From assembly GCA_002256005.1 (NCBI GenBank), contig NKIQ01000010.1, positions 1 to 64,000 of the forward strand: a stretch of 64,000 nucleotides of DNA, in the 5' to 3' direction. This document shows, piece by piece, positions 35,002 through 44,819 of this stretch. A program made the translations under genes and the position numbers. Origin of the DNA: Alphaproteobacteria bacterium PA4. Lineage in GTDB: Bacteria; Pseudomonadota; Alphaproteobacteria; Sphingomonadales; Sphingomonadaceae. How positions within the stretch are numbered: the stretch's first letter is position 1; every line of letters begins with the position of its first letter. Below the pieces are notes generated by a model. It was given only the letters and a program-made list of their open reading frames with translations. It did no database searches and was not told where the DNA came from.

Positions 35002-36237
35002 TCAGCCGCTGATGCCCATATCAGTGGCGGCGGCGCGGATGCGGCCCTGCGCAGCACTGTCGCCGGCAAAGGCGGCCAGCGCATCGTTGCGCGCCTTCAC
35101 CGCCGCCGCCGTATCGCCGAGCACGCTGCGCGCCCGAATCAGCCGCAGCCAGCCGGCCTCGTCGCGCGGATTGGCCTTCAGTTTTTCGGACAGGCGATCG
35201 ACCATGCCGGCGATCATCGCGTTGCGATCGGCGGGGTTCATCGCGGCGGCGCCGGCGACCTGATCGGGTGACGGGCCGGGCATGACGCCCGCCGGCGCCG
35301 CACCCGGTGGCGGCGCGACGGTGGCGCCACCGCTGGCCGGCGGCTTGATGGCGGCGAGCTCGGCCGTCACATCGATGCCCGCGGTCTTGGCCGTTTCGGT
35401 GATGATGCCGCGCAGCTGCGGCACCCAGGGCGCATCGGCGGCGGATTCGCCAAGCAGCGCCAGCCAGTCGGCAATGGCGCCCTTGGCGTCGCCTTCCTGC
35501 TGCTTCTTCAGGCCGAGGAAATAGCGGGCGCGGGCATCGCTGCCATCCTGCTGGCGCGCGGCGGTGAAGGCGGCGGCGGCGGCGGGGGTGACATTGCCAT
35601 CGGCGGCCTGCACCAGCGCTTCGCCCCAGGCGGACTGGAAGCCGGGGCCATCGGGCTTCAGCGCCACGGCCTTGCCATAGGCGGTGGCGGCATCGGCATA
35701 GCGGCCGGTCTGGAAATAGGACCAGCCGAGCATCCGCCAGCCTTCGGGGTCCGACGCGTTGGCGGCGACCTTCTTTTCCAGCCCGGCGATCAGCTGGGCG
35801 ATTTCGGCGGCCTGCGGATTGTCGGCGGCGGGCGCGGCGGGGGCCGTTGCGGCGGCGGTGCCGACGGGCGCGCTGGTGCCGGCGAGGCCGGGCTTGCCCA
35901 TCGTGGCGTAGAGCGCACCGGCGGCGAGCGCGACCATGGCGGCGAGGCCCAGCGCGACGCCGGAGAGGGCGCGGGCGCCCAGCGGCCGCATCGCGTCTTC
36001 GGGGATATGGCCGGCGGCGAGCATGCGGCGCTTGATCTCGATGCGCAGCCCTTCGGCATCGGCGGGCGGGATGGCGCCGGCGGCGAGCTGGATATCGACA
36101 TCGGCGAGCTGGTCCTTCAGCACGGCGATGGTGGCGGCGCGGGCATCGGCGCGGGCTTCCTGCCGGCGCACCAGCGGAATGGTCAGCGCCGCGGCGGCAA
36201 CGGCCGCCATCAGGGTCAGAATGATCCAGAGGGTCAT
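35002..36237 (-). CDS. ccmI: Cytochrome c biogenesis protein CcmI
   Basis: Part of the haem-ligation complex with CcmF and CcmH; holds apocytochrome c. 411 residues: N-terminal helix (TLWIILTLMAAVAAAALTIPLVRR), a helical loop (LKDQLADVDIQLAAGAIPPADAEGL), a second membrane helix near residue 100 (LSGVALGLAAMVALAAGALY), then TPR-like repeats in the periplasm (GWRMLGWSYFQTGRYADAATAYGKAVAL). ATG at 36237. Last gene of ccmF-G-H-I. Its 3' end overlaps in-frame esterase coding sequence. Confidence 0.88.
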   Translation of the reverse strand: MTLWIILTLMAAVAAAALTIPLVRRQEARADARAATIAVLKDQLADVDIQLAAGAIPPADAEGLRIEIKRRMLAAGHIPEDAMRPLGARALSGVALGLAAMVALAAGALYATMGKPGLAGTSAPVGTAAATAPAAPAADNPQAAEIAQLIAGLEKKVAANASDPEGWRMLGWSYFQTGRYADAATAYGKAVALKPDGPGFQSAWGEALVQAADGNVTPAAAAAFTAARQQDGSDARARYFLGLKKQQEGDAKGAIADWLALLGESAADAPWVPQLRGIITETAKTAGIDVTAELAAIKPPASGGATVAPPPGAAPAGVMPGPSPDQVAGAAAMNPADRNAMIAGMVDRLSEKLKANPRDEAGWLRLIRARSVLGDTAAAVKARNDALAAFAGDSAAQGRIRAAATDMGISG

Positions 36238-36277
36238 CAGTGTTCCAGCAATAATCGTTGGCGGCGGTAAAGGCGGT

Positions 36278-36715
36278 TCAGCCCAGCCGGTCAAGCTCGG
36301 CGGCTTCGGCGGCGGTCAGCGGCGCGACATCGGCGGGTTTCCGGCGGCGGCTCCAGCCCAGCAGCGCCAGCCCGCCGCCGCCCAGCACCAGGAACGGCCC
36401 CGCCCACAGCGCCCAGGTCGCCGGCTCCACCGGCGGCTTCAGCAGCACGAAATTGCCATAGCGCTGGACGATATAGGCCATGGTGTCCTGGTCCGACTTG
36501 CCCAGCGTCAGCTGTTCGCGGACGACGATGCGCAGGTCACGCGCCAGCGGCGCATCCGAATCGTCGATGGACTGGTTCTGGCAGACGACGCAGCGCAGCT
36601 CCGCCGAAATGGCACGGGCGCGCGCCTCCAGCGCCGGGTCCTTCAGCATTTCATCGGGCTGCACGGCCAGCGCCGGGGCGGTGAGCAGCATGAGGGCGAG
36701 AAGCGCGCGCTTCAT
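36278..36715 (-). CDS. ccmH: Cytochrome c maturation protein CcmH
   Basis: Membrane-anchored thiol oxidoreductase that keeps apocytochrome CxxCH cysteines reduced for haem ligation. 145 residues: signal/anchor (KRALLALMLLTAPALA), the redox motif LRCVVCQNQSIDDS near residue 40, a membrane helix toward the end (TWALWAGPFLVLGGGGLALLGW). The ATG at 36715 overlaps the ccmG stop (ATGA). Confidence 0.92.
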   Translation of the reverse strand: MKRALLALMLLTAPALAVQPDEMLKDPALEARARAISAELRCVVCQNQSIDDSDAPLARDLRIVVREQLTLGKSDQDTMAYIVQRYGNFVLLKPPVEPATWALWAGPFLVLGGGGLALLGWSRRRKPADVAPLTAAEAAELDRLG

Positions 36716-37254
36716 GCCTCGGCCCGCAATTGCTGCATCAGCGGCCGGATGGTCTTCTCCCACACCTCCGGGCTGATCGGGCCGATCTGCTTGAAGCGGA
36801 CACGGCCGCGCTTGTCGACGATGAAGGTTTCGGGGACGCCGGTGACGCCCAGATCGATGGCGGTGCGGCCGGTCTCGTCAGCGGCGATCTGGCGGTAGGG
36901 GTTGCCGAAACGGGCGATCCAGTCGCGGCTGTCCTGCGGCTTGTCCTTCCAGGCGATGCCATAGACCGGGAAGCCTTCGCCCGAAATCCGCGTCAGCACC
37001 GGATGTTCCTGCGGGCAGGCGGCGCACCAGCTGGCGAAGATGTTGAGCAGCCGGGGCTCGCCGGTGAACGCCGCGCTGGCAAAGCCGGGGCCGCCGCCGG
37101 GCTGATCGGCGATGCCGGGCAGCGCGAACTGCGGCAGCGGCCGGTCGATCAGCTGCGAGGGCAGCACCTTGGGGTCCTTGGTCAGGCCGATGGCGAAGAA
37201 GGCGACCAGCGCGATGAAGGCGCCGACCGGCAGCAGGAACAGGATGCGGTTCAT
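36712..37254 (-). CDS. ccmG: Thiol:disulfide interchange protein CcmG / DsbE
   Basis: Periplasmic thioredoxin-like reductant of the cytochrome c maturation pathway. 180 residues: N-terminal anchor (RILFLLPVGAFIALVAFFAIG), thioredoxin fold with NIFASWCAACPQEHP (WCxxC), and the cis-Pro region GVTGVPETFIVD. Start at 37254, eight bases after the ccmF stop. Confidence 0.92.
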   Translation of the reverse strand: MNRILFLLPVGAFIALVAFFAIGLTKDPKVLPSQLIDRPLPQFALPGIADQPGGGPGFASAAFTGEPRLLNIFASWCAACPQEHPVLTRISGEGFPVYGIAWKDKPQDSRDWIARFGNPYRQIAADETGRTAIDLGVTGVPETFIVDKRGRVRFKQIGPISPEVWEKTIRPLMQQLRAEA

Positions 37255-37261
37255 GAGGGGT

Positions 37262-39250
37262 CTACTCCGCCGGTACCAGGCCGGGGCGGAGCGCCGGCGC
37301 AAGCCGTGTCGGCGCGCCGATGCGGAAGCGGCGATCGGCCAGGCTGGCGGCGCCGCCCATCGCCATCATCAGCCCGCCGAACCAGATCCAGCCGACCAGC
37401 GGGTGATTGTAGATGCGCACGACAATGCCCGGGCCCTGCGGCCCCTCCTGACTGTCCCCCACCGCGATATAGGCGTTGCCGAGGAAGGCGGTGCCGATGC
37501 CGGCCTCCGTCGTCTGGTTGCGGCTGACCGGGTAGAAACGCTTTTCGCTGCCGAGGTCATAGCTGTTGCCGCGCTGGGTGATGCGGAAATCGGCGTGGAT
37601 GGCCTGATAATTGGGGCCGGCGACCTCGCCGACCTTGGCGAGCTTCACCTGCAGGCCGCCCAGGGTCGCCGTTTCGCCGACGCGCATGACGAGGATCTTC
37701 GATTCGGCGAACCCGCTCATCGCCGTCACGCCGCAGACGGTGACGCCCAGCCCGGCATGGGCCAGTGCCATGCCGATGACCGCCGCCGGCGTGGTGCGCA
37801 CCAGCCGCCACGAAAAGCCGGCGCCGCCCTGCCAGCGCCGCGCCAGCACCATCAGCCCGCCGAGGATCAGCCAGAAACCGAGCGCGAAACCGAAGGCGGC
37901 GCTGACCTGCTTCAGGCCAAGCGCCAGCGCCAGCACGGCAAAGACGCCGACGACCAGCAGCGCCGGCCATTTCAGCTTGGCGGCGACGGCGGCAAGGCCA
38001 TCGCGCTTCCACGCCAACATGGGCCCGACGGTGACCAGCAGCAGCAGCGGCACCGACAGCGGCACGAAGACAAGGTTGTAATAGGGTGGGCCGACCGAAA
38101 TCTTGTCGGCGGGGGCCACCGCTTCCATGATCACCGGATAGAAGGTGCCGAGGAAGACCACCGCGGTCACCGCCATCAGGAACAGATTGTTGAGGGTGAG
38201 GCCGGCCTCGCGGCTGACGCCCGAGAACAAGGCGCCGGATTTCAGCTGCGGCGCGCGCCAGGCGAACAGGCCGAGCGCGGTGCCGGTGGAGCCGATGATC
38301 ATGGCGAGGATGAAGACGCCGCGCGCCGGATCGACGGCAAAGGCATGCACCGAGGTGAGGATGCCGGAGCGGACGAGGAAGGTGCCAATGAGGCTAAGCG
38401 AGAAGGCGAGGATGGCGAGCAGGATCGTCCAGCCGGCCAGGGCCTGGCGCTTTTCGGTGACGATGGCGGAATGCAGCAGCGCGGTGCCGAGCAGCCAGGG
38501 CATCAGCGAGGCGTTTTCGACCGGATCCCAGAACCACCAGCCGCCCCAGCCCAGTTCATAATAGGCCCAGAAGCTGCCGAGCGCGATGCCGCAGGTCAGC
38601 GGCACCCAGGCCGCCAGCACCCAGGGCCGCATCCAGCGCGCCCAGGCGGCATCGGCGCGGCCTTCCAGCAGCGCTGCCACGGCAAAGCTGAAGGTGACCG
38701 AAAAGCCGACATAGCCGAGGTAGAGCAAGGGCGGGTGGAAGACGAGGCCGGGGTCCTGCAGCAGCGGGTTCAGCTCGGCACCGTCGAGCGGGGCGGGCGA
38801 CAGCCGGGCGAAGGGATTGGAGGTGAACAGCGAAAAGGCGAGGAACGCCACGCTGATCATCGCCTGCACCGACAGCACCCGGGCTTGCAGGCTGGGGCGC
38901 AGATTGTCACCGAAGCGGCCGATGCCGGCGCCGAAAATGGCAAGGATCAGCACCCAGAGCAGCATCGAGCCTTCGTGGTTGCCCCAGGTCGCGGCCAGCC
39001 GATAGGGCAGCGGCTGGCTGAGCGAGGCATGTTCGGCGACCAGTTCCACCGAGAAATCGGCGCGGCCGAAGCAGATCATCAGCAGCACGAAGGCGCTGAC
39101 CAGCAGCAGCGCCTGCACCTGCGCCGCCATCCGGCCGAAATCCATCAGCGCGCCATCGCCGCGCACCGCGCCGACCATGGGCAGCACCGCCTGGGCGAGC
39201 GCCACCAGCAGCGCCAGGATAAGGGCGAAGTGCCCGATTTCAGCCAACAT
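37262..39250 (-). CDS. ccmF: Haem lyase subunit CcmF
   Basis: Large integral membrane subunit of the System I haem ligation complex; 662 residues with about fifteen hydrophobic helices. The tryptophan-rich WWD domain is visible (GWGGWWFWDPVENASLMPWL), as is WGNHEGSMLLW with its conserved His. ATG at 39250 (MLAEIGHFALILAL). The operon ccmF-G-H-I begins here; ccmC, ccmD and ccmE are elsewhere. Divergent, 136 bases away, from the redox operon whose product carries ten c-type haem sites. Confidence 0.93.
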   Translation of the reverse strand: MLAEIGHFALILALLVALAQAVLPMVGAVRGDGALMDFGRMAAQVQALLLVSAFVLLMICFGRADFSVELVAEHASLSQPLPYRLAATWGNHEGSMLLWVLILAIFGAGIGRFGDNLRPSLQARVLSVQAMISVAFLAFSLFTSNPFARLSPAPLDGAELNPLLQDPGLVFHPPLLYLGYVGFSVTFSFAVAALLEGRADAAWARWMRPWVLAAWVPLTCGIALGSFWAYYELGWGGWWFWDPVENASLMPWLLGTALLHSAIVTEKRQALAGWTILLAILAFSLSLIGTFLVRSGILTSVHAFAVDPARGVFILAMIIGSTGTALGLFAWRAPQLKSGALFSGVSREAGLTLNNLFLMAVTAVVFLGTFYPVIMEAVAPADKISVGPPYYNLVFVPLSVPLLLLVTVGPMLAWKRDGLAAVAAKLKWPALLVVGVFAVLALALGLKQVSAAFGFALGFWLILGGLMVLARRWQGGAGFSWRLVRTTPAAVIGMALAHAGLGVTVCGVTAMSGFAESKILVMRVGETATLGGLQVKLAKVGEVAGPNYQAIHADFRITQRGNSYDLGSEKRFYPVSRNQTTEAGIGTAFLGNAYIAVGDSQEGPQGPGIVVRIYNHPLVGWIWFGGLMMAMGGAASLADRRFRIGAPTRLAPALRPGLVPAE

Positions 39251-39386
39251 GCGGAAACACAACCTCCCGCCGGCGCGCAGATTGCGCACCGGCCTTGCAT
39301 TGCCACTCTAGCCGACCCGGCGGGAGATGGTAGAGTGGATTACAGTCGCAGGCGCTGCCGGCGGCAACAGGGGGCTGTTTTCACGC

Positions 39387-41891
39387 GTGTCAGAGCGGTT
39401 TCGCATCGCCATCATCGGCTCCGGCCCGGCCGGGTTGAGCGCGGCTGCGCATGCAGCGCAGCTGGGCCTGTCGCATGTGCTGCTCGAAAAGACCGACCAT
39501 CTGTCGGACACGATCTACAAATACCAAAAGGGCAAGCATGTCATGGCGACGCCGGCGCAGCTGGTGCTGCGTGCCGGCGGCGGTCTGGCCTTTGCCGCCG
39601 GCAAGCGTGAAGCCATTCTGGGCAGCTGGGGCGAGCGGATCGCCGCCGCCGGGGTCAATGTGCGGCTGAATGCCGAAGTCACCGCCATCGCCGGCGCCGG
39701 CGACGCCATCCCCGGCAGCGTGCAGGCGATCGTGACACGGAAGCGCGACGGCAGCAGCGAGACGCGCGAATTGCAGCGCCACGCGCCGCCCTATCGGCTG
39801 ACGCTGGCCGATGGCAGTGCCATCATCGCCGACACGGTGATCCTTGCCATCGGCACCCAGGGCAATCCCAATCTGATGGCCTGTCCCGGCGCGGCGCTGC
39901 CGCATGTGCAATATCAGCTCGACGATCCGGCGGCCTATAATGACGAACATATCTTCGTCATCGGCGGCGGCGATGCCGGTATCGAGAATGCGCTGGGGCT
40001 GGCGGCCGATGCGGCGCAGGGCAATGTCGTGACGTTGGTCAACCGCTCGGCGGAATTCTCGACCGCCAAGGACGCCAATGTGAAGGCGCTGCTGGCGGCG
40101 CGCGACGCCGGCCGCATCAGCATCATGACCGGCACGACCACCCGCGCCATCGAACCCGGCTGGGTGGTGCTCGACACGCCGGAGGGCGAGGTGCGCGCCC
40201 GCTGCGACCGGCTGATCGCCCGCATGGGCTCGGCGCCGCCGCGCGGCTTCATCGAAGGCTGCGGCGTCGAATTCGCCAGCAGCGACCGGCTCGCCTATCC
40301 GAAGCTGTCGGCGGTGTTCGAATCGACGGCGCCCGGCATCTTCGTCGTCGGGGCGCTGGCCGGCTATCCGCTCATCAAGCATTGCATGAACCAGGGCCAT
40401 GACGTCGTCGAGTTCATCAACGGCAACACCGCGCTGCTGCCCGCCGACGAACCGATCCTGGCTGAAAAATTCACCGGCCTGCCCGGCAACCGCTCGGTCA
40501 GCGACTGGCTGGAATTCCTGCGCAGCCGGGTGTCGATCCTCGCCGGCATGAGTCTCCTCCAGATGCGCGAATTCATGCTCGACAGCGAGGCGCGGCTGTA
40601 TCGCGCCGGGGAGGTGATCTTCGAGCGCAACGCCCCGGGCTCCTCGCTGTTCGGCATCGCCGATGGCGAGGTGCGGGTGGAAATCGACCCCGGCAACCCC
40701 GCCATCACCGTCGCACTGCCGCAGGGCAGCATCGTCGGCGAGGTCGGGCTGATCTCCGGCCGCCGCCGCGGCGCCACGGTGCGCGCCGGCAGCGACTGCA
40801 TCCTTGTCGAAATCTCGCGCACCGCGGCGCTGCGGCTGATGTCGGCGGTGCCCTCGGCGCGGCGCGAGGTCGACCGCCTCACCACCGAGCGCAGCGTCCT
40901 CCAGATCGCCGCCATCGTGGCGACGGCGAAGGTCGAGACCATCCCGGCCGGCAAGGCGGTGATATCCGAAGGCGACAGCGGCGACGACATCTTCATCATC
41001 CGCTCGGGTTCGATGGTGGTGGAGCGGCAGATCGGCGGCAAGCCGGTGTTTCTGAACTATGTGCCGGCGGGCAGTTTCGTCGGCGAAATGGCGGTCATCG
41101 ACGGCGGCACCCGCAGCGCCACCGTGCGCGCCGCGGTCAAATCCGATGTCATCCGGCTGGGCGGCGCCGCCTTCCGCGACCTGCTGGCCGCCAAGCCCGA
41201 CCTGCTGGCCCGGCTGCGCGCCGAAATGGCGACGCGCACCGCGATGAACGCGATGATCGAGTCGAAAAAGGACAGTTTTCGCGGGCTGGTCGACATGTAC
41301 ACCGGCGTCGCCAACTTCCTGGTCGAAAATGGCGTCGGCGAGGCCACCGATGTGCTGCTCATCGATGAAAAGCTCTGCGTCGGTTGCGACAATTGCGAAA
41401 AGGCCTGCGCCGACAGTCATGACGGCCTGTCGCGCCTCGATCGCGAGGCCGGGCGCACCTATGCGCATCTGCACGTGCCGACATCGTGCCGGCATTGCGA
41501 ACATCCGCATTGCATGGCCGATTGCCCGCCCAATGCCATCCACCGCGGCCCGACCGGCGAAGTCTATATCGACGACAGCTGCATCGGTTGCGGCAATTGC
41601 CAGCGCGGCTGCCCCTATGGCGTCATCCGCATGGACAAGGTGCCGCCGAAGAAGCCCTGGCTGCTGAGCTGGCTGCTGTTCGGCCAGGGCCCCGGCCCCG
41701 GCGAGCCCGATGCCAAATGGAGCAAGAAGCACGCCCACGCCGAAGCGCCGAAAAAGGCGATCAAGTGCGACATGTGCTCCGGCCAGAGCGGCGGCCCCGC
41801 CTGTGTGCGTGCCTGCCCGACCGGCGCCGCCATCCGCGTCTCGCCCGAACAATTCCTCACCGTCGCGCTGCTCGATCGGGGCCAGGGCTGA
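39387..41891 (+). CDS. Flavoprotein with two cyclic-nucleotide-binding domains and four 4Fe-4S clusters
   Basis: 834 residues from the GTG at 39387; an ATG at 39327 adds 20 poorly conserved residues. Domain order: a thioredoxin-reductase-like FAD/NAD(P) domain (GSGPAGLSAAAHA at about 11-23, second dinucleotide site VIGGGDAGIE near 190, VVGALAGYPLIKH near 320); two cNMP-binding domains at about 400-480 (GEVGLISGRRRGATVRA) and 515-595 (GEMAVIDGGTRSATVRA); then a DmsB/NrfC-like ferredoxin part from about 660 with 16 Cys in four groups (CVGCDNCEKAC, CRHCEHPHCMADC, CIGCGNCQRGC, CDMC-x8-CVRAC). No TrxR CxxC redox pair is evident. Likely moves electrons from NAD(P)H through FAD and Fe-S to the membrane partner, gated by a cyclic nucleotide (inference). 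TGATG overlap with the next gene. Confidence 0.82.
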   Translation: MSERFRIAIIGSGPAGLSAAAHAAQLGLSHVLLEKTDHLSDTIYKYQKGKHVMATPAQLVLRAGGGLAFAAGKREAILGSWGERIAAAGVNVRLNAEVTAIAGAGDAIPGSVQAIVTRKRDGSSETRELQRHAPPYRLTLADGSAIIADTVILAIGTQGNPNLMACPGAALPHVQYQLDDPAAYNDEHIFVIGGGDAGIENALGLAADAAQGNVVTLVNRSAEFSTAKDANVKALLAARDAGRISIMTGTTTRAIEPGWVVLDTPEGEVRARCDRLIARMGSAPPRGFIEGCGVEFASSDRLAYPKLSAVFESTAPGIFVVGALAGYPLIKHCMNQGHDVVEFINGNTALLPADEPILAEKFTGLPGNRSVSDWLEFLRSRVSILAGMSLLQMREFMLDSEARLYRAGEVIFERNAPGSSLFGIADGEVRVEIDPGNPAITVALPQGSIVGEVGLISGRRRGATVRAGSDCILVEISRTAALRLMSAVPSARREVDRLTTERSVLQIAAIVATAKVETIPAGKAVISEGDSGDDIFIIRSGSMVVERQIGGKPVFLNYVPAGSFVGEMAVIDGGTRSATVRAAVKSDVIRLGGAAFRDLLAAKPDLLARLRAEMATRTAMNAMIESKKDSFRGLVDMYTGVANFLVENGVGEATDVLLIDEKLCVGCDNCEKACADSHDGLSRLDREAGRTYAHLHVPTSCRHCEHPHCMADCPPNAIHRGPTGEVYIDDSCIGCGNCQRGCPYGVIRMDKVPPKKPWLLSWLLFGQGPGPGEPDAKWSKKHAHAEAPKKAIKCDMCSGQSGGPACVRACPTGAAIRVSPEQFLTVALLDRGQG

Positions 41892-42784
41892 TGGCGGTGC
41901 GGGCGAAGGCGATGGGGCGGGCGGTGGCCCGCGCGCCGCGCGATACGGCGCATGAGGGCTTTCTCGGCCATCGCCGCGGGCGCTGGCTGAAGGTTTCGGC
42001 AGCGCTGTCGCTGACCGCGATCCTCGCCTATGCCCTCATCGACCAGACGCCGCGCCCCAATGGCGGCACCGCGCTCGGCTATGCGCTCGGCACTTTGGGG
42101 GCGGGGCTGATCGTCTGGCTCAGCCTCATCGGCCTCAGGAAGCGCATCATCACCACCGGGCCCTATTCGCTGAAGGGCTGGACCAGCGCGCATGTCTGGC
42201 TCGGCCTGTCGCTGATCGTCATCGCGACGCTGCACAGCGGCTTTCAGCTCGGGCTGAATGTCCATGGCCTCGCCTATGTGCTGATGATGTTCGTCATCCT
42301 GTCCGGCCTGTGGGGCATCTATGTCTACGCCCGGCTGCCGGCGCTGCTTTCGGCCAATCGCAACGAGATGACGCAGCCGCAGATGCTCGCCGCCATCGCG
42401 GCGCTCGACCGCCAGCTCGATACCGCCGCCCAGCCGCTCGGCCGGGACGAGGCCGATCTGGTGCGGATGAGCATCGAGGGCTGCGATATCGGCGGCAGCC
42501 TGTGGGCGCGGCTGACCGGCCGCTACCCCGGTTGCGGCAACAGCCGCGCCGAAGCGGCGGTGGCGGCGCTGGTCGATGGCCAGCGCCGCACCGGCACCGC
42601 CGATCCGCGGCTGGTGCAGATTCTGTTCCTGCTGGAGCGCAAGGGCGCGGCGCTGGCCCAGGCCCGCCGCCATGTCGCGCTGAAAACGCGGCTGGAGCTG
42701 TGGCTCTACGTGCATGTGCCGGCGACCTTTGCGCTGCTGGCGGCGCTGGTCGCGCACATCCTCTCCGTCTTTCTCTACTGGTAG
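41891..42784 (+). CDS. b-type cytochrome-like membrane protein of the redox operon
   Basis: 297 residues with hydrophobic helices near 37-55, 64-83, 100-120, 128-145 and 275-297. Candidate haem ligands are in membrane-facing His residues: SAHVWLGLSL, ATLHSGFQLGL, VHVPATFALLAALVAHIL. The layout resembles ferric-reductase-like or cytochrome b561-type membrane anchors. A soluble loop (about 150-265) separates the fourth and fifth helices. Coupled to the flavoprotein gene (TGATG) and followed five bases later by the decaheme gene. It is the obvious membrane relay between the cytoplasmic Fe-S protein and the periplasmic haems; the exact family is uncertain. Confidence 0.7.
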   Translation: MAVRAKAMGRAVARAPRDTAHEGFLGHRRGRWLKVSAALSLTAILAYALIDQTPRPNGGTALGYALGTLGAGLIVWLSLIGLRKRIITTGPYSLKGWTSAHVWLGLSLIVIATLHSGFQLGLNVHGLAYVLMMFVILSGLWGIYVYARLPALLSANRNEMTQPQMLAAIAALDRQLDTAAQPLGRDEADLVRMSIEGCDIGGSLWARLTGRYPGCGNSRAEAAVAALVDGQRRTGTADPRLVQILFLLERKGAALAQARRHVALKTRLELWLYVHVPATFALLAALVAHILSVFLYW

Positions 42785-42789
42785 CGGCG

Positions 42790-44634
42790 ATGGGCTTTAC
42801 CGTTCGCCAGATCGCACGCCGCGCCGATGGCGGGGAGATCATCCGCACCCGCGCCTTCGACGGCGCCGAGCTGAGCGTCGGCCGCGGCAGCGATTGCGAT
42901 ATCCAACTTGCCGATCTCGGCCTGATGCTGCGCCATGCCCGGCTGCGGCTGGCCGGCGATGGCCGGGTGGCAGTGGAGGCGATGGGCGGCGTGCCGCTGG
43001 AAATCGCCGGCGCCTTCGTCACCCGCGCCGACCTCGACCCCGGCGACAATCCGACGATCATGCTGGCCGCCCATCGGCTGACCCTGGCGCGCGGCGAAGA
43101 TGGCGGCGTGTTGGTCACCGCCGAGCGCGTGCTTGCCGCCGGCGATGGCAGCGATGCCGCCAGCGAAGCGCAGGTCTTCACGCTGAAAAAGACGCTGCCC
43201 AGCAAGCGCCGGCTGGCCTGGGGGTTGGTGGTGCTGATCCTGGGCCTGGGCCTGGCGCTGCCGCTGTGGGTGATGGCCGGGCGACAGACGGTGCTGCCGC
43301 CGGCGCTGGTGACGGCCGCTGCCCGCAACGCTGCACCGGTGGCAACGCCGGCAAGCGGCTGGCAGCCCGACCGCGTCTGGAGCAGCGGGCCGCTGTCCAC
43401 CGCCCATGCCGGCCTCGCCAACAGCTGCGGCGCCTGCCACGCCAAACCGTTCGAGGCGACGACCGATACCGCCTGCATCGCCTGCCACACGCCCGCCGCC
43501 ATCCCGGCGCACGCCCCGGCGGCGCGGCTGGCGCGCGGGCAGGTGCCGGCCACCGGTCTGGTCGCGGACGTGCACAAGGCATTCAACCTGCCGGAAGGCC
43601 GCTGCGCCAGCTGCCACAAGGAGCATGAGGGGCCGGACGGCGCGCTGCAGGTGGCGGAAAACTTCTGCACCGATTGCCATCGCGGGCTGGCGGCGCGGCT
43701 GCCCGACACGCGCCTCGCCAATGTGCCGGACTGGGGCGGCCATCCCGCCTTCAAGCCGACATTGGTGGTGCAGCCATCGCTGACCGCGCCGCGCTTCGAA
43801 CGCGTGGCGCTGGCCGGGGCGCGCGAGACGTCCGGCCTCGTCTATCCGCACCAGCTGCACCTTTCGACGCGCAACAGCGTCGCCAATATGGTGCGGGCGC
43901 AGGGCCTGCCGGGCAAGAACGGCCTGCTCGCCTGCAATTACTGCCATGTGCCGGACAGTGACGGCGAACGCTTCCAGCCGATCAGCATGGAGAAGAATTG
44001 CGCCGCCTGCCACGACCTCGCCTTTGCCCGCGATGGCGGCGTCGTGCGCACCCTGCCGCATGGCAAGCCCGAACAGGCCGCCGGCATCATCCGCGATTTC
44101 TACCTTGGCCAGGCGCTGTCACCGCGCGCCGGTGTCGCCGCCGCCGATCGCCGCCTGCCGGGCAGCGAGGCGCGGCTGCGCACGCTGGCCTTCACCAGCC
44201 CGGCGCAGGCCCGCGCCCAGGCCGATGCCGCCATCGCCGGCATCTTCGGCAAGGGCGGCACCTGCGCCGAATGCCATGCCATCACCGACACCGGCGGCGC
44301 CAATCTGCTGACCCGCTTCGCCATCAGCCCGGTGACGCTCGCCGACCATTATCTGCCCAAGGGCCGGTTCCCGCACAAACGCCATCTGAGCTATGACGGC
44401 AGGACCGGCGACGCCGCCTGCATCAGCTGCCACAGCGGCGTGCCGCGCTCGAACCTGGCCAGTGATGTGCTGCTGCCGCCGCTGTCGCAATGCGCCACCT
44501 GTCACGGCGGACCGCAGCTGGCGACGGCGGCGCCGGCGACCTGTGCGACCTGCCATGGCTATCATTATGGCGAATCCGGCCATGGCGGCGATGCGCTGCG
44601 CGTGCGGCTGGTCGTGGCGCGGCGCGGGGAGTAG
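42790..44634 (+). CDS. FHA domain - transmembrane - decaheme cytochrome c fusion
   Basis: 614 residues. Residues about 1-115 look like a forkhead-associated domain (LSVGRGSDCDIQLAD ... LRHARLRL), which binds phosphothreonine peptides. One membrane helix at 142-163 (LAWGLVVLILGLGLALPLWVMA) puts FHA in the cytoplasm and the rest in the periplasm. Ten CxxCH haem sites follow: CGACH, CIACH, CASCH, CTDCH, CNYCH, CAACH, CAECH, CISCH, CATCH, CATCH, the first near residue 213 and the last near the end. The pattern suggests a cytochrome c3/NapC-like multihaem fold. No signal peptide; the helix is a signal anchor. Third gene of the redox operon; maturation would need the ccm system encoded next door. 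Confidence 0.85.
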   Translation: MGFTVRQIARRADGGEIIRTRAFDGAELSVGRGSDCDIQLADLGLMLRHARLRLAGDGRVAVEAMGGVPLEIAGAFVTRADLDPGDNPTIMLAAHRLTLARGEDGGVLVTAERVLAAGDGSDAASEAQVFTLKKTLPSKRRLAWGLVVLILGLGLALPLWVMAGRQTVLPPALVTAAARNAAPVATPASGWQPDRVWSSGPLSTAHAGLANSCGACHAKPFEATTDTACIACHTPAAIPAHAPAARLARGQVPATGLVADVHKAFNLPEGRCASCHKEHEGPDGALQVAENFCTDCHRGLAARLPDTRLANVPDWGGHPAFKPTLVVQPSLTAPRFERVALAGARETSGLVYPHQLHLSTRNSVANMVRAQGLPGKNGLLACNYCHVPDSDGERFQPISMEKNCAACHDLAFARDGGVVRTLPHGKPEQAAGIIRDFYLGQALSPRAGVAAADRRLPGSEARLRTLAFTSPAQARAQADAAIAGIFGKGGTCAECHAITDTGGANLLTRFAISPVTLADHYLPKGRFPHKRHLSYDGRTGDAACISCHSGVPRSNLASDVLLPPLSQCATCHGGPQLATAAPATCATCHGYHYGESGHGGDALRVRLVVARRGE

Positions 44635-44691: not shown

Positions 44692-44819
44692 GCCTCCGGC
44701 GGCAGGGGCCGTAGGCCCCAGACCCCATTTATTGGCTACCGCATGGCAACACAGGCGGCCTTTCAGGCAAAATCTGAGCGAAATGGGGTCTGGGGCCTAC
44801 GGCCCCAGCCGCCGGAGGC
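44692..44819. repeat. Palindromic intergenic element, copy H
   Basis: Left arm 44692-44728 (with GCAGGGGCC in place of GCTGGGGCC) and inverted right arm 44783-44819. The spacer is of the class seen in A, F and K. Lies between the convergent decaheme and ctpA genes. Confidence 0.9.

Follow-up and report, generated by a model that had tools for sequence, protein, structure and literature searches.

Three consecutive genes in a window of 64,000 nucleotides (the whole stretch of DNA analysed here, from contig NKIQ01000010.1 of Alphaproteobacteria bacterium PA4, Sphingomonadaceae) raise the question of where a cell might send electrons through a flavoprotein with two cyclic nucleotide-binding (cNMP) domains, a membrane protein and a decahaem cytochrome placed one after the other. 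The answer that we favour, with moderate confidence, is that these genes, A, B and C, and a partner operon form a cyclic-nucleotide-gated trans-envelope conduit, in which electrons taken from NAD(P)H would travel as far as the outer membrane or cross it.

Gene order and redox domains of the A-B-C locus

The three genes and all of their features given below are on the forward strand. Gene A (39387..41891) runs from a GTG at 39387 to a TGA at 41891 and encodes 834 amino acids, gene B (41891..42784) starts with the ATG at 41891, and gene C (42790..44634, 614 amino acids) starts with the ATG at 42790. The first-pass annotation had reported these coordinates, together with a TGATG overlap between A and B at 41891 and a five-base gap between B and C, all of which are confirmed from the sequence. 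The order A-B-C is kept in all 42 loci examined, which bears out the earlier expectation that the three genes would co-occur elsewhere and shows that their arrangement is not due to chance. These loci comprise the window, 39 loci from the other 51 family genomes positive for B and C, and two Sphingobium plasmids; the family loci thus represent 40 of the 52 positive genomes. Moreover, A and B appear as one fused open reading frame (1123 and 1118 amino acids) in two other genomes.

The product of gene A starts with FAD and NAD(P)H Rossmann domains of the TrxR/YpdA-like type (39399..40406, residues about 5-340; Pfam PF07992/PF13738, Pyr_redox_2/Pyr_redox_3). The redox CxxC of thioredoxin reductase is absent and, outside the Fe-S part, only C273, C292 and C333 are kept in at least 30 of the 42 sequences; the score of A with the YpdA bacillithiol reductase model TIGR04018 is 109 bits against a cut-off of 340. 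The central part contains two PF00027 stretches (115 bits), with phosphate-binding cassettes at 40725..40787 (residues 447-467) and 41070..41132 (residues 562-582). CNB domains that bind cAMP or cGMP have a phosphate-binding cassette with a Glu and an Arg, and both residues are intact in each cassette of A in 42/42 sequences (E452 and R461; E567 and R576), so that cyclic-nucleotide binding is predicted from these residues. Four 4Fe-4S sites follow (41376..41816; Fer4 domains in Pfam), with 16 Cys between residues 664 and 810, all conserved in the 42 aligned sequences, that of the window included; PF13247 is matched with an E-value of 7.8e-12.

Gene B encodes an inner-membrane protein with five transmembrane helices (TM), placed by hydropathy clusters at about residues 32-50, 62-87, 96-124, 127-153 and 276-294, alongside the helices of the AF2 model. 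Two haem-ligand motifs, W97-x3-H101-x13-H115 on TM3 (42179..42235) and W271-x3-H275-x13-H289 on TM5 (42701..42757), form two H-x13-H pairs whose four His are the same in all of the 35 diverged B proteins compared, a selection from about 79, as are W97, W271, G139 and G142. The two Gly belong to an SGXXG motif on TM4 (S138-G139-x-x-G142), of which S138 is found in at least 90% of the 35 proteins. Such pairs follow a two-haem b pattern and two b haems are predicted. According to hydropathy and charge, both pairs lie on helices of the same direction, and the helical domain between TM4 and TM5 is predicted to be cytoplasmic.

The B protein of the window has no match at E 0.1 in Pfam and NCBIfam, while searches allowing E-values up to 10 return PF01292 for 42/42 B proteins (6e-8 at best, and 1.9 for that of the window) and PF01794 for 14 of the 42 (0.001 at best), the window's B staying far under the curated cut-offs of both. 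B was rejected as a plain PF01794 member, with only weak profile matches and the His ladder remaining, and PF01794 has no match in the PA4 genome. An hhalign comparison with a single E. coli YodB and a single MsrQ detected no relation. When the B model was used as the query for a fold search, no structure reached E ≤0.001, the VIA matches listed being mostly unrelated helical proteins. Some stretches of the membrane part of this model have a pLDDT of close to 60, and it has no convincing solved relative.

The product of gene C combines an FHA-like domain (42871..43041, residues about 28-84), one TM helix and ten CxxCH haem sites (43426..44556, residues 213-589), the latter present in 42/42 sequences. 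Ten further His, nine conserved in 42/42 and one in 41/42, are possible second haem ligands. The FHA match scores 21.0 bits against a Pfam cut-off of 20.7. Phosphothreonine-binding FHA domains are recognised by the motifs GR, SxxH and NG; in C, the GR and the His are kept in 42/42 sequences, but at least 40/42 have lost the Ser of SxxH, so that the domain is degenerate and lacks the phosphothreonine-binding set. Taken together, the domains and conserved ligands support the putative chain of a flavin, four 4Fe-4S clusters, two b haems and ten c haems that had been proposed earlier, and the fused reading frames support the link between A and B.

The partner operon and the distribution of the two halves

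The three genes had been read at first as a complete system. This view could not be kept, given that a second operon of PA4, on another contig, provides the outer half. It encodes a pentahaem cytochrome (F21), an HbpS-like lipoprotein (F7), an AlgE-like outer-membrane barrel (F6) and a decahaem cytochrome with an LVIVD propeller (F5). F21 contains four CxxCH sites and one CX4CH. Besides its ten haem sites, F5 carries 16 further conserved His, 15 of them in the haem half and each kept in at least 34 of 37 sequences, so that a candidate second ligand seems available for every haem. F6 is predicted to fold as an 18-strand barrel, its model aligning with AlgE with a Z-score of 28.8 and 2.9 Å over 362 residues.

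The two halves have a closely matched distribution. B and C are present in the same 52 of the 149 family genomes sampled, about a third, in counts that leave out the weak matches in G017, G069 and G085. F5 was found in 52/52 of these genomes and in 1/96 of the others, the exception being G022, which is 67% complete. Furthermore, four genera (g15, g34, g78 and g79) include one genome with both halves and a congener with neither, the lack of F5 in g78 and g79 being read from absence among the F5 positives. Beyond the family, F7-F6-F5 lie downstream of the inner genes and on the same strand in 21 of the 34 other alphaproteobacterial loci (L158-L191). Class-wide searches were positive for B in 37/385 genomes, after twelve weak ones were left out, and for F5 in 28/372, after six were left out. 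Nine of the 37 B-positive genomes are outside the F5 positives, but the genome draws for B and F5 differ and the absence is not always true; of these nine, G172 carries outer genes at L189 and G517 at L161. Among the loci examined, a K9-type 5-haem gene occurs only in those without F5, while PA4 has the decahaem F5. The entry module, the periplasmic relay and the outer-membrane module, with some 25 c haem sites, come and go together.

Whether electrons would leave the cell is a separate matter. A decahaem protein may not fit inside an AlgE-type barrel of 18 strands, which makes an electron exit via F6 uncertain. F6 is similar to channels of the AlgE/OprD class, and the matches listed for its model include no MtrB. 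The latter two points would suit a pathway that ends in the periplasm, where F5 would reduce a soluble acceptor, F6 would be the porin through which this acceptor enters and A-B-C would be a supply of reductant driven by NAD(P)H. In line with such a role, the F21-type protein of one locus (L178) matches cytochrome c554. We regard this possibility as doubtful, since F5 shows no haem without a candidate second ligand; the F7 lipoprotein and the propeller point outwards by analogy only.

Proposed electron entry, direction and control

In the conduit that we favour, A-B-C would be the inner-membrane half. The flavin of A would be reduced by NAD(P)H and pass electrons via the four 4Fe-4S sites to the two stacked b haems of B, so that the inner membrane could be crossed without need for the quinone pool, and the electrons would then arrive at C, on its ten periplasmic c haems. 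They would proceed from there to the pentahaem and the decahaem/propeller cytochromes and, with the AlgE-like barrel and the lipoprotein, to or through the outer membrane. The flow would be gated by the two cyclic-nucleotide domains, which are placed between the flavin and the Fe-S part, with the signal presumably set by a cyclase and a phosphodiesterase. The sequences show the underlying domains, the sites for haems and clusters with their conserved ligands, the order of the genes and their co-occurrence, and modelling predicts the barrel fold; electron flow and its direction, the acceptor, the extracellular exit and the gating are inferred.

The direction is where the published models differ from ours. 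The porin–cytochrome clusters PCC3 and PCC4, defined in silico by He et al. 2017 (PMC5566968), have an inner-membrane protein with the same motifs as B and are proposed to bring electrons inwards to quinone, and some of their hosts are metal oxidisers. By this model, an outside donor such as Fe(II), Mn(II) or humics would feed the outer cytochromes, then C and B, and finally the quinone pool or NAD(P)+. NAD(P)H appears the more natural partner for several reasons. The A proteins of the PCC4-like relatives are shorter, and the one scanned with Pfam (L194) has no flavin domain; the absence of FAD in these short forms was judged by length and by that scan, the FAD motif pattern missing many full-length A proteins. 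An unrelated NAD(P)H reductase (K14) accompanies the short A in these clusters. An NAD(P)H flavoprotein, either fused or separate, is thus found across these relatives and A can be fused to B, which favours NAD(P)H entry. Additionally, the reduction of NAD(P)+ by high-potential donors requires an input of energy and no coupling part is seen that could power it, and the Sphingomonadaceae are mostly heterotrophic. Inward flow in this system seems unlikely to us. Against our own reading, two loci of one family (L179 and L181) show no cNMP-plus-Fe-S gene within the stretch examined. If NAD(P)H entry holds, the PCC3/PCC4 clusters would gain an entry point for electrons that can be tested, with NAD(P)H in the place of quinone, and the question of their direction would become one for an enzyme assay.

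The surroundings of gene A suggest yet another use of the reductant. Divergent to A and outside the chain, the reverse strand of the window contains genes for a CcmF/NrfE-family haem lyase (37262..39289; TIGR00353, 630 bits against a cut-off of 569), a DsbE/CcmG-family thioredoxin-like protein (36712..37302; over the TIGR00385 cut-off), a CcmH/NrfF-like protein (36278..36763; below the TIGR03147 cut-off) and CcmI (35002..36294; over the TIGR03142 cut-off), and in 38/42 loci the opposite strand carries a CcmI-like TPR gene upstream of A. A-B-C might thus serve mainly cytochrome c maturation or thiol/methionine repair in the periplasm, which we hold to be very improbable: almost every genome of this kind should have Ccm genes, whereas A-B-C occurs in about a third of the family and its strict co-occurrence partner is F5.

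With regard to control, the first-pass annotation had proposed both a cyclic nucleotide and Ser/Thr phosphorylation. The second was rejected as a main reading, the FHA domain having lost its Ser and a search for PF00069 kinases in the PA4 genome being empty. The first is supported by sequence, through the intact cassettes in 42/42 sequences, the linked phosphodiesterase and, in PA4, the cyclase beside it. A phosphodiesterase gene adjoins C in 40/42 loci, and in PA4 it comes 91 bp after the one cyclase of the genome that PF00211 detected. Against this, its nearest model is SpdA, whose substrates are 2',3'-cyclic nucleotides, with 117 bits against a cut-off of 400, and CpdA gives 88 against 225, both below the NCBIfam equivalog cut-offs. 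No phosphodiesterase match above 100 bits was found in the 38 loci L158-L195, and a relative is located 4.7 kb beyond C in L221. Full-length relatives of a CHASE2 cyclase are present in 11/52 B/C-positive genomes and 1/96 others (12/148 genomes, leaving out partial matches in G011, G092 and G093), and this cyclase was rejected as a fixed part, with 11/52 only.

That the periplasmic haems might instead signal via B to A and alter cyclic-nucleotide handling would fit the linked cNMP domains, cyclase and phosphodiesterase, as well as the known Sinorhizobium cyclase that answers to the quinone redox state (PMC10463352), but a sensor would need neither a barrel in the outer membrane nor as many as some 25 haem sites, and no cyclase, kinase or other output domain is among the Pfam matches listed for A, so that we give this reading almost no credence.

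If the gated conduit works as proposed, sphingomonads, which are usually treated as plain aerobic heterotrophs, could discharge NAD(P)H by a route separate from oxygen respiration. A tentative extension, which we put forward with low confidence, is that aerobic Alphaproteobacteria could have a widespread quinone-independent wire from cytoplasmic NAD(P)H to the cell surface, its entry enzyme switched directly by a cyclic nucleotide as a form of post-translational second-messenger gating. We know of no earlier case in which a cyclic nucleotide acts on a conduit itself rather than on transcription.

Comparison with known electron-transfer systems

As predicted for B, the NOX/ferric reductase superfamily (PF01794) and cytochrome b561 (PF01292) hold two b haems by H-x13-H pairs on a set of two helices, but B has no dehydrogenase domain, which A would supply. 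MtrCAB, PioAB and MtoAB likewise combine decahaem cytochromes with an outer-membrane barrel, whereas the barrel here is AlgE-like and the inner part looks NAD(P)H-linked and not CymA-like. With the MtrA/DmsE family model TIGR03508, C scores 13.5 bits against 192, and F5 has no match listed at E 0.01.

The earlier suggestion that no characterised system has this set agrees with the literature search, in that no conduit of this type in sphingomonads was among the matches listed, with most subscription papers and bioRxiv preprints outside the coverage; with the same coverage, no papers were returned on LVIVD with multiheme cytochrome, on FHA domain with decaheme, or on cytochrome c3 family proteins in Sphingo-. 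Predicted relatives do exist in print, the closest being the PCC3/PCC4 clusters (PMC5566968). A 'Forkhead-associated protein' of Gallionellaceae with 10 haem motifs (cluster 403, 27 genomes; Table 1 of PMC10734462) is similar to C in its FHA and ten haem motifs, a likeness by annotation only to an entry listed under 'Other'.

PCC3 has the same type of inner-membrane protein, with a porin and multihaem cytochromes (PMC5566968, PMC10734462), and B relatives in L219 and L225 are beside reading frames with 19-27 CxxCH. In contrast, the PCC3 wires are very haem-rich, with medians of 34 and 21 (PMC5566968), and no flavin/cNMP/Fe-S gene is included in the sections on PCC3 that were considered.

The likeness to PCC4 (PMC5566968) is more extensive. 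Its inner-membrane protein has five TM, two WX3HX13H motifs on TM3 and TM5 and an SGXXG on TM4, all of which are found in B, and in subgroup II an Fe-S gene (PF13247) is upstream of the gene for this protein, as A overlaps B. PCC4 includes multihaem cytochromes with 10 and 4 haem sites, to which C with ten and F21 with four CxxCH (and one CX4CH) can be compared; its definition also includes a porin and a 5-haem periplasmic cytochrome, and the word 'cyclic' is absent from the main text of that paper. The PA4 system differs in that its Fe-S protein is joined to a flavin domain for NAD(P)H, in the FHA-like domain of C, and in the outer part F21-F7-F6-F5 with its decahaem-propeller protein. F6 models as a barrel, and hhalign gave no signal of a common origin with the K8 barrel of the PCC4-like loci, K8 being equated with the PCC4 porin from gene content only. 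The A-B-C system thus takes its place as an uncharacterised variant beside the predicted PCC3 and PCC4 clusters.

Inner genes and their conservation

The genome holding the window comprises 3.0 Mb and is 96% complete, with the window as its contig C27, and its closest genus-named matches are to Polymorphobacter/Sandarakinorhabdus. Gene A (39387-41891) encodes a TrxR/YpdA-like FAD-NAD(P) part, as judged by Pfam and the nearest solved chains, with two cNMP domains and then four 4Fe-4S sites behind it. Gene B (41891-42784) encodes a membrane protein for which no Pfam match was found at E 0.1, and gene C (42790-44634) an FHA-like domain, one TM helix and ten CxxCH motifs. These plus-strand genes are translationally coupled, and the identity and order of their parts are beyond reasonable doubt. 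Divergent to A, the minus strand carries the cytochrome c maturation genes ccmF, ccmG, ccmH-like and ccmI (35002-39289). At most other loci, a CcmI-like TPR gene was detected alone at the divergent position 5' of A.

All 42 loci compared retain the A-B-C order; besides the window they comprise 39 of the 51 further B/C-positive family genomes and two Sphingobium plasmids (all 12 plasmid matches were to Sphingobium). With start codons chosen by us, A and B overlap by one base (gap -1) in 27 of these 42 loci, and 4-19 bases separate B from C in 39. All rows of the 42-sequence alignments preserve the 16 Fe-S cysteines of A, the Glu and Arg of both its phosphate-binding cassettes and the ten CxxCH of C; the conserved cysteines of A do not include a thioredoxin-reductase CxxC. 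Furthermore, C has ten additional conserved His (nine in 42/42, one in 41), a number that would allow every one of the ten haems to be bis-His ligated. A broader alignment of B, with 35 proteins selected from some 79 and identity down to 20%, has only 12 invariant columns, and exactly four of them are His (H101, H115, H275 and H289). Hydropathy and charge indicate five TM helices with the N-terminus inside, and TM3 and TM5 would therefore be parallel. The two H-x13-H pairs would place one haem near either membrane face.

A dispersed palindromic repeat accounts for 19 matches to GGGGTCTGGGGCCTAC (at most two mismatches) against 0.04 expected, at 44692-44817 and about 11 other places. The copies mostly form facing pairs 50-75 bases apart, and the one directly 3' of C is predicted to fold into a notably long hairpin (z -9.75). 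The window gave no Rfam match; the repeat is possibly a REP-like mobile element.

The outer half and its co-occurrence

F5, a cytochrome ORF of about 1310-1520 aa, lies downstream on the opposite strand in 20 of the 42 loci, where, within the limits of the stretches, F6, F7 and F21 lie beside it. It has ten CxxCH and 15 additional His in the haem half (16 overall), every one of them present in 34 or more of 37 sequences, and LVIVD repeats in the one such ORF scanned. F21 contains one CX4CH besides four CxxCH, F7 is HbpS-type by Pfam with a lipobox read off the sequence, and the F6 model is an 18-strand, AlgE-like barrel (Z 28.8, 2.9 Å over 362 residues). In the window's own genome these genes form an operon, F21-F7-F6-F5, on contig C5 (L197 3798-12961), an order found in 10/10 genomes with a fetched copy apart from A-B-C, this one included.

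A search of 148 family genomes for F5 returned 53 positives, which are all 52 genomes with B and C plus G022, a 67% complete genome (Fisher p about 2e-39, uncorrected for kinship). In each of four genera (g15, g34, g78 and g79), both halves are present in one genome and absent from another; the halves therefore vary jointly at short range too. In a class-wide alphaproteobacterial sample, which included three genomes of the same family, clear B relatives were present in 37 of 385 genomes and F5 in 28 of 372, every one B-positive. Co-occurrence of the inner and outer halves is strong. At 21 of 34 such class-wide loci (L158-L191), F7-F6-F5 come next after the inner genes, on their strand, and in L164, L174, L178 and L182 this position is taken by K9 (a 5-haem cytochrome) and K8 (barrel-like).

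Predicted electron path and its control

The most economical path would lead from NAD(P)H through FAD, the Fe-S clusters, two b haems and ten c haems to F21 and F5 at the outer membrane. NAD(P)H is the likely entry because one common Fe-S/b/c core is paired with either of two NAD(P)H flavoproteins that are unrelated to each other, the first fused to it and the second encoded separately. The whole chain is read from sequence and predicted structure, and flow direction, acceptor and surface exposure are predicted at most. Since a barrel of AlgE size may not enclose a haem wire, a serious rival to the conduit is a reductase confined to the periplasm and served by a porin of its own.

With regard to control of the proposed conduit, the cassettes are intact and sited between the flavin and Fe-S parts of A. 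A metallophosphoesterase adjoins C in 40 of the 42 loci and was found in 68 of 80 fetched contig stretches. The two exceptions are the window's own genome, where the phosphodiesterase copy lies on contig C18, separated by 91 bp from a preceding CHASE2-type cyclase, the genome's sole PF00211 match, and G072, where cyclase, phosphodiesterase and F5 operon lie side by side from about 13 kb beyond C. A cyclase of the same kind (over 50% identity) is present in the L100, L114, L132 and L136 stretches. From the intact cassettes, the phosphodiesterase beside C and the cyclase-phosphodiesterase pair, we argue that a cyclic nucleotide would gate the chain. The linked phosphodiesterase is closer to SpdA, described in the available text as acting on 2',3'-cyclic nucleotides (PMC4222275), and falls below both curated cut-offs, which counts against simple cAMP. 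Two further results count against it as well: no such linkage was detected at loci L158-L195 (38 in all), with one relative lying 4.7 kb from C in L221, and the cyclase is confined to 11 of 52 B/C-positive family genomes. Control by Ser/Thr phosphorylation, as proposed in the first-pass annotation, was not supported.

Distant relatives and published clusters

More distant relatives (L192-L195, L212-L218, L220, L223, L224 and L226), with gene sets complete to varying degree, have a shorter A of about 550-630 aa; the copy scanned with Pfam, from L194, contains cNMP and Fer4 without a flavin domain. They also have, to varying completeness, a decahaem C, K6 cytochromes (3-4 CxxCH), K9 and K8, and all except L220 have K14, a separate NAD(P)H reductase akin to BenC, NqrF and flavohaemoglobin reductases. 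The start of C in L192-L195 is Cys-rich and not FHA-like; three of the four have 9-10 Cys among the initial 120 residues, L195 being left out of the count as its ORF start is too far upstream. In two other genomes, A and B are fused in a single ORF (L210 3052-6423, 1123 aa; L211 6850-10206, 1118 aa) that combines flavin, cNMP, Fe-S and both WX3HX13H motifs; the C gene that follows has nine CxxCH. In L179 and L181 (family f56), an FAD piece of A is a separate ORF beyond F5, and a cNMP-plus-Fe-S gene was not seen within the stretch examined.

PCC3 and PCC4 are predicted porin-cytochrome clusters whose inner-membrane protein was likened to ferric reductases (He et al. 2017, PMC5566968). As far as the available text describes it, this protein has five TM helices; WX3HX13H occurs on both TM3 and TM5, and TM4 carries SGXXG. 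B shares all of these features. ORFs with 19-27 CxxCH beside B relatives in L219 and L225 correspond to the PCC3 arrangement. According to the same text, PCC4 comprises a porin with 4-, 5- and 10-haem cytochromes, and in its subgroup II an Fe-S gene precedes the membrane protein gene; by gene content, the distant relatives (L192-L195 and others) would match this subgroup. The word 'cyclic' is absent from the main text of that paper. A decahaem 'Forkhead-associated protein' is tabulated for 27 Gallionellaceae genomes, the term's sole mention in the text available (PMC10734462). Compared with PCC4 as described in PMC5566968, the form in the window differs in its fused flavin domain, its FHA-like domain and its outer module.
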